A stretch of DNA of 64,000 bases from Collinsella tanakaei YIT 12063 (lineage in GTDB: Bacteria; Actinomycetota; Coriobacteriia; Coriobacteriales; Coriobacteriaceae). The stretch spans positions 97,426 through 161,425 of the forward strand of contig NZ_JH126471.1 in assembly GCF_000225705.1 (NCBI RefSeq). Reading direction: 5' to 3'. This document shows, in pieces, positions 9,938 through 13,335 of the stretch. The first letter of the stretch is position 1, and every line of letters starts with the position of its first letter. The notes beneath the pieces were generated by a model. The model saw only the letters and a program-made list of their open reading frames with translations. It was not told the origin of the DNA and made no database searches. A program made the translations under genes and the position numbers.

Positions 9938-10003
9938 GGATCCTCCGTATGGTCTCGCTGTCGATTGGTTCGCTGGCCCTTATGCTGCCTGAGGAGCGGG
10001 AAT

Positions 10004-10885
10004 GTGGATAGTGACAATTGTCACGACCGCGTTTTGCTACCATACAAACCCATGGAGAGGATAGTTGACATAACGGTTGTGTATGCGTGCTGCGTGCTGT
10101 CGATGCTGCTTGCGCTGTGCTGTCCCGCTGCGACGTCGGCGGTTCTTGCGCTGTACGGCGGGTTGACGGGGTTGGCGTCCGTTGCCTGTTTTCTGGTATC
10201 TGTCATTTGCGTTTTGGGATGCGAATGGTCCGGCTGTGGCTGGCGCGCAGTCCTGCCCGCTGCGTATTGCGTGATCGCTGTGGCTGTGCCCGCCGGCGTC
10301 TTCTTTGTGCCCGCTGCGCTCTATGAGCTCATGCGGTCTGTGCATGAACCTTTGCCGTGGAAGGTTGCCCCTGCCGCTGCTCTTTTCCCCGCCGTCGCAT
10401 TGGCGGCGCGTGGCGGGGTGGCGCCCGCATTGCTGCTGGTTGTTGCGGTAGCGGCTCTTGCGGCGCTTCTATCCATGCGAACCTGCGCGCTTACGGCCCA
10501 GCGCGACCTGACACGACGTACGCGCGACGATCTTGTTGAGCGCGAGCTTTGCGTGCGTGACGCTTTGGCGGCGGTGCGGGCGGCGCCCGGTGGCCCTGGC
10601 GTGACGGACGAGGGGGCCGCTGCAGGTGCTGGCGCCATTGCGGGCGCGTCTGCTGCCGCCGCCGCGGAGCCCGACGCCCGTCCGCGCGAGTTTGAATGCT
10701 TGACGGAGCGCGAATACGAGATTGTTCGCCTGGTGGCCGAAGGGCTCGACAACCACGAGATCGCAGCGGAAGCGTTTATCAGCGAAGGTACGGTGCGAAA
10801 CCGGATTAGCTCGGTGCTTTCCAAGACCGGCTACAAGAATAGGACGCAGCTCGCGGTCGCTTGGTGGCGCTCGCGTTCGTTGTAG
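10004..10885 (+). CDS. Membrane-anchored LuxR/NarL-type transcriptional regulator
   Basis: The C-terminal 65 residues (LTEREYEIVRLVAEGLDNHEIAAEAF..., about residues 230-293) are a canonical GerE/NarL helix-turn-helix. The N-terminal part has about five hydrophobic helices (residues 25-160), then a charged helical stretch and an Ala/Gly-rich linker. There is no receiver, kinase or ligand-binding domain that I recognise. It therefore looks like a one-component regulator with a membrane sensor tied directly to the DNA-binding domain. GTG 10004 has GAGGAG seven bases upstream; ATG 10052 (giving MERIVDITVVYACC) lacks a Shine-Dalgarno but would suit a leaderless mRNA. Divergent placement suggests it controls the adjacent ABC exporter. 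Confidence 0.8.
   Translation: MDSDNCHDRVLLPYKPMERIVDITVVYACCVLSMLLALCCPAATSAVLALYGGLTGLASVACFLVSVICVLGCEWSGCGWRAVLPAAYCVIAVAVPAGVFFVPAALYELMRSVHEPLPWKVAPAAALFPAVALAARGGVAPALLLVVAVAALAALLSMRTCALTAQRDLTRRTRDDLVERELCVRDALAAVRAAPGGPGVTDEGAAAGAGAIAGASAAAAAEPDARPREFECLTEREYEIVRLVAEGLDNHEIAAEAFISEGTVRNRISSVLSKTGYKNRTQLAVAWWRSRSL
10011..10024. promoter_or_regulatory. 14-bp perfect palindrome at the LuxR/ABC divergent junction
   Basis: GTGACAATTGTCAC is a perfect 14-bp palindrome lying between the ABC exporter operon (minus strand) and the body of the LuxR-type gene (plus strand). It lies just inside the LuxR gene if GTG 10004 is the start, or upstream of it if ATG 10052 is used. Its TTGTCA half could double as a -35 element. 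The position suits an operator that controls the regulator or both directions. Confidence 0.5.
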
Positions 10886-11462: not shown

Positions 11463-11795
11463 CTACTCAATCCCTGCGGGCCAGCGGTTGGCGGACAGGT
11501 CCACGCGGCCGTCTGCAAGAAAGCTCACGCCTTCTGCTTCCAGCAGTTCGCGCTGCGCTTCCGGGCCGCCAAAGGCGAAGCCGGGGGCGAGGCGACCGTC
11601 CGCGAAGACGATGCGATGACAGGGGATGATACCAGGGCGGGGGTTTACATGCAGGGCATAGCCCACGTAGCGTGCGCGGCGGGGCTCGCCAACCAGCTTG
11701 GCTATCTGCCCATATGTGGCGACCATGCCTTCCGGCACCTGCTCGACCATCTGGTAGACTCGCTCGAAGAATCCCTCTTTTGCTGTCGGTTCCAT
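11463..11795 (-). CDS. MGMT-family alkyltransferase (DNA-binding domain only, active-site Cys present)
   Basis: The 110-residue protein corresponds to the C-terminal domain of O6-alkylguanine-DNA alkyltransferases: a winged-helix segment (VPEGMVATYGQIAKLVG) with the recognition helix, then IIPCHRIV with the alkyl-acceptor Cys near residue 60. Alkyltransferase-like (ATL) proteins of the same size usually replace this Cys by Trp; here it is kept, so direct methyl transfer from DNA is possible. The N-terminal domain of Ogt/Ada is absent. It heads a two-gene unit with the acetyltransferase. Confidence 0.88.
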   Translation of the reverse strand: MEPTAKEGFFERVYQMVEQVPEGMVATYGQIAKLVGEPRRARYVGYALHVNPRPGIIPCHRIVFADGRLAPGFAFGGPEAQRELLEAEGVSFLADGRVDLSANRWPAGIE

Positions 11796-11933
11796 ATATC
11801 TCCCTGCGATGAAGATGGTTTTGCGGCTAAGTGTATCGCATCGCGGCGGCCGGGCGGTGGGGAGACCCCGCCCGTCAGCGTTCTCTACGCTTGGTAGAGC
11901 GGGGGGCGGTTGCCAAGCGGCATGTTGCCATGT

Positions 11934-11949
11934 AGTATCGTTCGATACT
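11934..11949. promoter_or_regulatory. Inverted repeat AGTATCG-TT-CGATACT upstream of the MFS exporter
   Basis: Two perfect 7-base arms separated by TT lie 46 bases before the leader peptide. They are in the likely promoter region and could be an operator for a dimeric repressor; no regulator gene is adjacent. Confidence 0.4.
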
Positions 11950-11995
11950 CACGACTGCTGTAGTCTTTCATATTTTGGGAAAGGGGAGCGTCACC

Positions 11996-12025
11996 ATGCT
12001 TGCTTCCATGAGGATTTGGCTCTAG
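11996..12025 (+). CDS. Leader peptide MLASMRIWL upstream of the Mef-like exporter
   Basis: A nine-residue ORF with a strong Shine-Dalgarno (AAAGGGGAG, 11980-11988, seven bases upstream) ends 65 bases before the exporter gene. Its Ala-Ser-Met-Arg core resembles the leader peptides of macrolide-inducible genes, such as the mef(A) leader (MTASMRLR) and the ErmD leader (MTHSMRLR...), in which the ribosome stalls at the Met-Arg-Leu-Arg region when macrolide is bound. Here the residues after Arg are Ile-Trp-Leu rather than Leu-Arg, so stalling is likely but not certain. A 7-bp hairpin starts four bases after its stop codon. Confidence 0.65.
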   Translation: MLASMRIWL

Positions 12026-12028
12026 CCA

Positions 12029-12046
12029 CGGTCGCGTGAGCGACCG
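12029..12046 (+). promoter_or_regulatory. Hairpin between the leader peptide and the exporter
   Basis: CGGTCGC (12029-12035) pairs with GCGACCG (12040-12046) over a GTGA tetraloop. A third copy of GGTCGC follows at 12046-12051. The hairpin starts right after the leader stop codon, where a stalled ribosome would disturb it. There is no clear T-run after it, so transcriptional termination is not obvious; translation control or Rho-dependent attenuation are alternatives. Confidence 0.5.
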
Positions 12047-12090
12047 GTCGCATTGCATTTCAACCGATCGCATCAAAAGGAAAAATCAAT

Positions 12091-13335
12091 ATGCATAAGA
12101 ATGATCGCTCTTCTTGGAAGCGTTCCGTTGCCCTTGTCTGGCTGGGAGAGGCGTTTTCAGTTCTTACCAGCTCCGTGTTGCAGATGGGGCTTATCTGGCA
12201 CGTCACGCTGACTACAGGCTCCGCTGGCGCCCTGTCGTTGGTGAGCCTCGCGGGCTTTCTGCCCATGGCGGTGCTCGGGGTGTTTGCCGGAACCATCGTC
12301 GACCGATCGTCGATCAAGCGGTTGATGATAGGCGCCGACCTCTTCATTGCGGGTGTGAGCTGCACGCTTGCGTTTGGATCGGCGGCGGGCGGTCTTCCCG
12401 TGTGGGCCGTCGCCGCGGTGGTGTTCGTCCGCGCCCTTGGCACCACGCTGCACACGCCGGCGTTCAACGCGTTGACGCCCATGCTCGCTCCGCCGGAGAT
12501 GCTGGGCCGTCTTGCCGGCATCCAGCAGTTCATGCAATCCGGCAGCTATATCTTGGGAAACGCCATCGCGGCGGTTCTCTATCCCATGTTCGGTCTTACC
12601 GCCATGGTCGCGCTCGACGTCGCCGGCGCGGTGATCGCGAGCGTCGCCGTGGCTATATCGGGCGTGGAGACGCCGCGCGTCCACCGAGAGCAGGTGGATC
12701 AAGCGGGAGCCGGGGCGCTGCGCGGGTTCATGCGGGATACCGTCCAGGGCTATCGGGAGCTCAGGCGCCACGCCGGCTTGTTCGCCATGCTGTGGATAGG
12801 CTTCGCGTTCTCCGTACTGTTCAGTCCCATTTCCGCCTTGTTCCCGCTTATGACGTTCGAGCATTTCGGCGGCACCACTATGCAGTCAGCCGCTACCGAG
12901 ATCGTCTTCTCGCTGGGCATGATCGCCTCCAGCGCGTGGATAGGCGCCACGGGAGGTTTCAAGCATCAGGGCGTTTCCTGCGTGCTGGCGATCGCCCTGT
13001 TTGGCGTCACGACGCTCGCCTCGGGCTTGCTGCCGGCATCGGACTTCGCCCTGTTCCTGGCGTTTACGTTCGCTATGGGGGTATCGTCCCCGTTGTATAG
13101 CAGCCCGCAGATGGCGCTTATGCAGCGCAAGGTCGATCCGGATTGCTTGGGACGAGTTTTTGGCCTGTACGGCGCGGTATGTAGCTGGGCCATGCCCGTG
13201 GGCCTCATCTTCTCAACTTTGTTCGCCGACTCAATCGGCGTGACGCGCTGTTTTGTTTTGGTGGGTGTGGCCATGATCGTCCTGGCGGCGCTTTCCTGGT
13301 CCATCAAGAGCGTTCGAACCATCGATCAGCATTAA
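12091..13335 (+). CDS. Mef-like MFS macrolide/drug efflux transporter
   Basis: The 414-residue, 12-helix MFS protein resembles streptococcal Mef(A) along its length: SSWKRSVALVWLGEAFSVLTSSVLQMGLIWHVTLTTGSAGALSLVSLAGFLP at the N-terminus, the loop GTIVDRSSIKRLMIGADLFIAG, FVRALGTTLHTPAFNALTPML, and a C-terminal LGRVFGLYGAVCSWAMPVGLIFSTLFADSIGV. Mef proteins export 14- and 15-membered macrolides with the proton gradient. AAAAGGA lies before the ATG. The gene start and leader are more AT-rich than the surroundings, which hints at acquisition. A bidirectional terminator follows. Substrate is inferred by family only; the usual partner msr(D) is absent. Confidence 0.85.
   Translation: MHKNDRSSWKRSVALVWLGEAFSVLTSSVLQMGLIWHVTLTTGSAGALSLVSLAGFLPMAVLGVFAGTIVDRSSIKRLMIGADLFIAGVSCTLAFGSAAGGLPVWAVAAVVFVRALGTTLHTPAFNALTPMLAPPEMLGRLAGIQQFMQSGSYILGNAIAAVLYPMFGLTAMVALDVAGAVIASVAVAISGVETPRVHREQVDQAGAGALRGFMRDTVQGYRELRRHAGLFAMLWIGFAFSVLFSPISALFPLMTFEHFGGTTMQSAATEIVFSLGMIASSAWIGATGGFKHQGVSCVLAIALFGVTTLASGLLPASDFALFLAFTFAMGVSSPLYSSPQMALMQRKVDPDCLGRVFGLYGAVCSWAMPVGLIFSTLFADSIGVTRCFVLVGVAMIVLAALSWSIKSVRTIDQH

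Follow-up and report, generated by a model that had tools for sequence, protein, structure and literature searches.

The short open reading frame MLASMRIWL, located ahead of a Mef-like exporter gene in Collinsella tanakaei YIT 12063, is likely to be a regulatory leader of the MefAL/ErmDL kind, in which ribosome arrest by a cladinose-bearing macrolide would turn on the exporter and ketolides would not act as inducers. If this reading is true, a natural and conserved leader using the +X(W) arrest motif would show that evolution exploits a motif defined in libraries, and the locus would provide a natural test of the model of cladinose/ketolide discrimination derived from ErmDL. The analysis also pointed to resistance of the mef/msr type in abundant gut actinobacteria, responsive to macrolides and in part mobile, in genes which are missed by the curated Mef models and, narrowly, by the curated Msr model.

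Leader, hairpin and exporter gene

The window, that is, the whole stretch of 64,000 nucleotides which was analysed, carried the promoter, leader, hairpin and exporter parts located below on its plus strand. The leader ORF MLASMRIWL was read from the sequence at 11996-12025 (ATG CTT GCT TCC ATG AGG ATT TGG CTC TAG) and was kept in the orthologous loci. Its ATG lay 7 nt downstream of the end of the Shine-Dalgarno sequence AAAGGGGAG (11980-11988), which was almost unchanged across six orthologous loci. Three bases past the leader stop began a perfect 7-bp hairpin (CGGTCGC-GTGA-GCGACCG, 12029-12046), the local fold of which reached -14.4 kcal/mol (z -2.8, equalled by 2/200 shuffles) and the sequence of which occurred once in the window. 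Its 5' arm is segment 1 (CGGTCGC, 12029-12035), and its 3' arm (GCGACCG, 12040-12046), identical in six loci, belongs to segment 2 (12037-12048). The structure of the 150-nt leader region as a whole was no stronger than that of shuffles (z -0.85), and nothing above any family's threshold was returned by Rfam over 11780-12250.

A spacer of 65 nt (12026-12090), including the exporter Shine-Dalgarno region AAAGGAA (12076-12082) recognised from the sequence, separated the leader stop from the ATG of the MFS gene (12091-13335, 414 aa). The best curated match of this gene was the NCBIfam model of the Mef(A) macrolide exporter (NF000245), full-length at 352.5 bits, which is about half of the cut-off of 675 bits, and an alignment with the phi1207.3 Mef(A) gave 42-43% identity across 99% of its length; macrolide efflux by the window protein is putative. 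The arrangement described in the first-pass annotation, a leader with a Shine-Dalgarno sequence, a 7-bp hairpin and a Mef(A)-like MFS gene 65 nt on, was confirmed from the sequence and the profile match. No Msr-like ABC-F protein was detected in the window's own genome at E <= 1e-60.

Transcription is predicted to begin at about 11945, upstream of the leader, from a promoter TTGCCA-17-TAGTAT (11910-11938) proposed by the promoter scan, in which one was found versus 0.5 expected in shuffles. The relatives had their -10 at the same place as the window (TAGAAT, TATAAT, TACAAT and TATAAT) with a weak -35, and the scan did not return them. A palindrome GTATCGTTCGATAC near the predicted -10 showed no conservation in relatives and was set aside. 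The hexamer CTCACG at the predicted 5' end of the transcript (window about 11945-11951) was invariant in 6/6 orthologous loci, and it is complementary to CGTGAG of the hairpin (12034-12039; window and five orthologous loci), a possible third pairing.

Conservation and history of the locus

MLASMRIWL and the hairpin were identical in five other Collinsella genomes, including C. intestinalis, C. phocaeensis and C. provencensis, in which the orthologous exporter behind the leader was 72-74% identical to the window gene. A degenerate leader pattern was matched in 6/399 genomes of the order, each time at this ortholog, and the reversed control gave 0 matches; conservation in related genomes, the check named when the leader was first pointed out, had a positive outcome. 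As a positive control, the same procedure on phi1207.3 returned the experimentally studied leader MTASMRLR at -311 of mef(A). Over the 53-nt block that begins with the leader ATG and ends shortly beyond the hairpin, the window differed by 0 changes from four relatives and by 1 change from the fifth (L003), and the leader Shine-Dalgarno, start, frame, stop and also the wobble positions were all conserved. The exporter gene of the window and its relatives shared 72% nucleotide identity and 46-52% identity at four-fold sites. Because the block showed 0-1 changes while the gene was 72% identical, both peptide and RNA of the leader block are judged to be jointly under strong purifying selection. 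The pattern M-x4-R-x-W with a Shine-Dalgarno sequence occurred in the window's own genome at about control level (7 vs 5), which means that the motif by itself is not specific, and therefore it is conservation that carries the case for the leader. A loose MxA[ST]MR pattern gave chance-like matches only among 201 genomes and was dropped, and no window leader DNA was found in viral contigs.

Within the window's clade, the locus L008 had lost SMRIW, its leader being MLAF or a GTG-started VPIPMLAF (L008 1370-1432), and it retained the hairpin stem, after which came a U-tract. Read from its sequence, this locus shows that the arrest motif has been lost in nature inside the clade.

Import of the gene had been proposed from an AT-rich leader and gene start. 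The first part of this observation held for the intergenic stretch ahead of the gene (51% GC), but the 3' intergenic stretch was likewise AT-rich (47-52%) and the gene body had 60-70% GC. The argument for import from AT-richness was rejected on the composition of both flanks, and also because other Collinsella have the ortholog close to these ogt/HAD genes as well. In several relatives, the ogt, GNAT or HAD genes likewise lay a few kilobases or less from the ortholog, with the order changed. The neighbourhood of the exporter rearranges, since C. provencensis (G019) contained, beside the full copy, a second mef-like copy that is partial and adjoins an ogt fragment (contig C3 1701581-1702432, L058). 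Locus L031 has an N at the partial-copy junction in G019, so an assembly join is possible there.

Putative arrest site and proposed switch

The window leader contained Ala3-Ser4-Met5-Arg6, and Arg6-Ile7-Trp8 was present in 6/6 loci. A Ser-Met-Arg leader ahead of a Mef-like gene, as originally proposed, was borne out, and the replacement of Leu-Arg by Ile-Trp was likewise seen; the resulting R-I-(W) is the known erythromycin arrest motif +X(W), obtained by inverse toeprinting of random libraries in vitro (PMC6238534). The +X(+) motif of the MefAL/ErmDL type was absent in the window leader, with +X(W) in its place, and no natural leader using +X(W) was found in the literature searched. In ErmDL, arrest by erythromycin needs Ser4 (only Ala or Gly is tolerated) and Met5, and Arg8 can be replaced by almost anything; arrest by telithromycin requires Arg6 and Arg8 and is abolished by Arg8 to Trp, and these data concern L7 and R8W singly, not I7 paired with W8 (PMC8298421). 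The first reading had gone no further than a drug specificity that may differ. That suggestion can now be put as a definite prediction, since R-I-(W) belongs to +X(W) and the change of Arg8 to Trp in ErmDL abolishes telithromycin arrest: induction by cladinose macrolides is predicted, and the ketolides telithromycin and solithromycin are not expected to act as inducers, given an A-site residue that is Trp rather than Arg or Lys. The leader probably senses macrolides, working like MefAL and ErmDL without their +X(+) motif.

In the proposed switch, a cladinose-bearing macrolide would sit in the ribosomal exit tunnel during translation of the leader. Judging by published toeprinting, the erythromycin-bound ribosome would arrest when Ile7 occupies the P site and Trp8 the A site, with Ser4-Met5-Arg6 at the drug. 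The arrested ribosome would then reach segment 1 of the hairpin and free segment 2, which could pair with segment 3 (ACCGATCGCATCA, 12063-12075), and this 2:3 pairing would raise the expression of the exporter via transcriptional read-through or an opened translation start. With the usual ribosome footprint, Ile7 in the P site would mean that segment 1 is covered over no more than its first one or two bases. Segment 3 was conserved beside a diverged spacer and could serve segment 2 as an anti-attenuator partner. Folding with segment 1 free gave the hairpin 1:2, and when segment 1 was masked, segment 2 paired with segment 3, just before the exporter Shine-Dalgarno. Both pairings were conserved; the 2:3 energy was reached by 10-20% of shuffles (p about 0.1-0.2; 2-8% in group B, a second set of loci described below), and no covariation was found in the 2:3 pairing. 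No intrinsic terminator was found in the window, the hairpin being without a U-tract, and intrinsic terminators were present in the homologous loci L008 and L065. The leaders of L008 and group B look like transcriptional attenuators, and an attenuator is plausible for the leader and hairpin of the window. In the MFE fold, codons of the leader also paired at long range with codons near the start of the MFS gene; this pairing shifted its register between orthologs and was not used.

Other leaders, alternative readings and known systems

Group B comprised a Mef-like gene about 50% identical to the window exporter, found as 94-100% identical copies in 14 genera from three families of Coriobacteriales. 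The GTG-started leader VVGLFRTWMSA, with Arg6-Thr7-Trp8, was present in all 18 group B loci read. The one locus scanned showed a promoter TTGACA-18-TAATAT and a hairpin of terminator-like form with TGTTTTTC behind it, and an Msr-like ABC-F gene (677.6 bits versus the curated Msr cut-off of 680) came next after the mef-like gene in the one locus that was read completely. A 3.3-kb stretch with the mef-like and msr-like genes of this mobile mef-msr(D)-like operon was common to six loci (L096 6513-9764; L095, L097-L100), an ORF near the operon resembled a relaxase when its sequence was read (NCBIfam gave no match), and group B leader DNA was met in one viral contig. R6-x-W8 would either have arisen twice or have been lost several times, because group B fell within the chromosomal homologs (group D) in the tree, a leader of this type being seen in no group D member, with the window's clade apart. 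The group B leader, unrelated to that of the window, probably had an independent origin. It is a tentative view, which we hold to be slightly less probable than its contrary, that Coriobacteriia evolved Arg6-x-Trp8 exporter leaders at least twice independently, as a cladinose-specific code which would ignore ketolides and report macrolide chemistry, one of them carried among gut Coriobacteriia on a mobile mef-msr unit.

More distant Mef-like exporters (31-36% identical) from other families of the order had different short leaders with a Shine-Dalgarno sequence, placed 190-305 nt ahead of the exporter gene: MAGQIY, MAGYYFL, MAGRRCR, MAGRLFR, MAGMLLL (twice), MHHAFL and MFQLYL (L120, L122-L127, L038). 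The MAG-type and other leaders of these exporters may constitute another drug-sensing class. A LuxR-type (GerE) HTH protein was encoded close to the window exporter (window 9965-10885), and in some group D loci that lack a leader (L084, L087, L092), HTH-like reading frames ended immediately before the mef-like gene; such proteins are a possible alternative regulator.

Drugs such as chloramphenicol that act at the peptidyl transferase center (PTC) are context-specific inhibitors, and the leader could be an arrest sensor with Ala3-Ser4 and not R6-I7-W8 as the site, responding to a different drug of the tunnel or the PTC, such as chloramphenicol, linezolid, lincosamides or streptogramins, or to more than one drug. 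The substrate of the exporter is putative, and leaders sensing several drug classes are described in PMC12121999. We nevertheless consider this unlikely: Ser4-Met5-Arg6 is the signature of MefAL and ErmDL, the window exporter is Mef-like, and the independent R6-x-W8 leader stands ahead of mef and msr, a pair of macrolide genes in known systems. The conservation of nucleotides beyond the amino acids, wobble positions included, with the hairpin in the same block, could also mean that the element works through its RNA structure, by way of stability or of Rho-dependent or protein-bound control, and that the ORF is incidental. This is quite improbable given that the Shine-Dalgarno, start, frame and stop are all maintained, that the peptide holds the residues required for erythromycin arrest and that an independent leader reuses R6-x-W8. 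A tryptophan attenuator, in which scarce charged tRNA-Trp would stall the ribosome at codon 8, would suit the Trp codon near the end of both the window and group B leaders, but it is very hard to credit with a single Trp codon, a drug exporter in place of a gene of Trp metabolism, and the conserved Ser4-Met5-Arg6 left unexplained.

Several points count against the macrolide-arrest reading favored here: the +X(+) motif is absent, the hairpin has no U-tract, 10-20% of shuffles reach the 2:3 energy, the arrested ribosome would barely extend into segment 1, and L008 keeps the hairpin after losing SMRIW. The leader can be compared with three known systems. Arg6-Ile7-(Trp8) of the window fits the +X(W) library motif exactly; that motif was defined in vitro, whereas the window has a conserved natural leader (PMC6238534). 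Compared to the ErmDL/ErmKL leader MTHSMRLRFPTLNQ, Ser4-Met5-Arg6 stand at the same positions and the predicted P-site codon is likewise codon 7, but the window has Trp8 for Arg8 and would regulate an exporter, not a methyltransferase (PMC8298421). The leader MefAL/Mef(E)L, MTASMRLR, of the mef/msr(D) elements (PMC4335068, PMC10314930) shares with the window a short ORF led by a Shine-Dalgarno sequence before a Mef gene, an identical Ala3-Ser4-Met5-Arg6 and a hairpin following the leader. Differently, the window has Ile7-Trp8-Leu9 versus Leu7-Arg8 and a spacer of 65 nt versus about 290 nt, and it carries neither a U-tract terminator nor a downstream msr(D).
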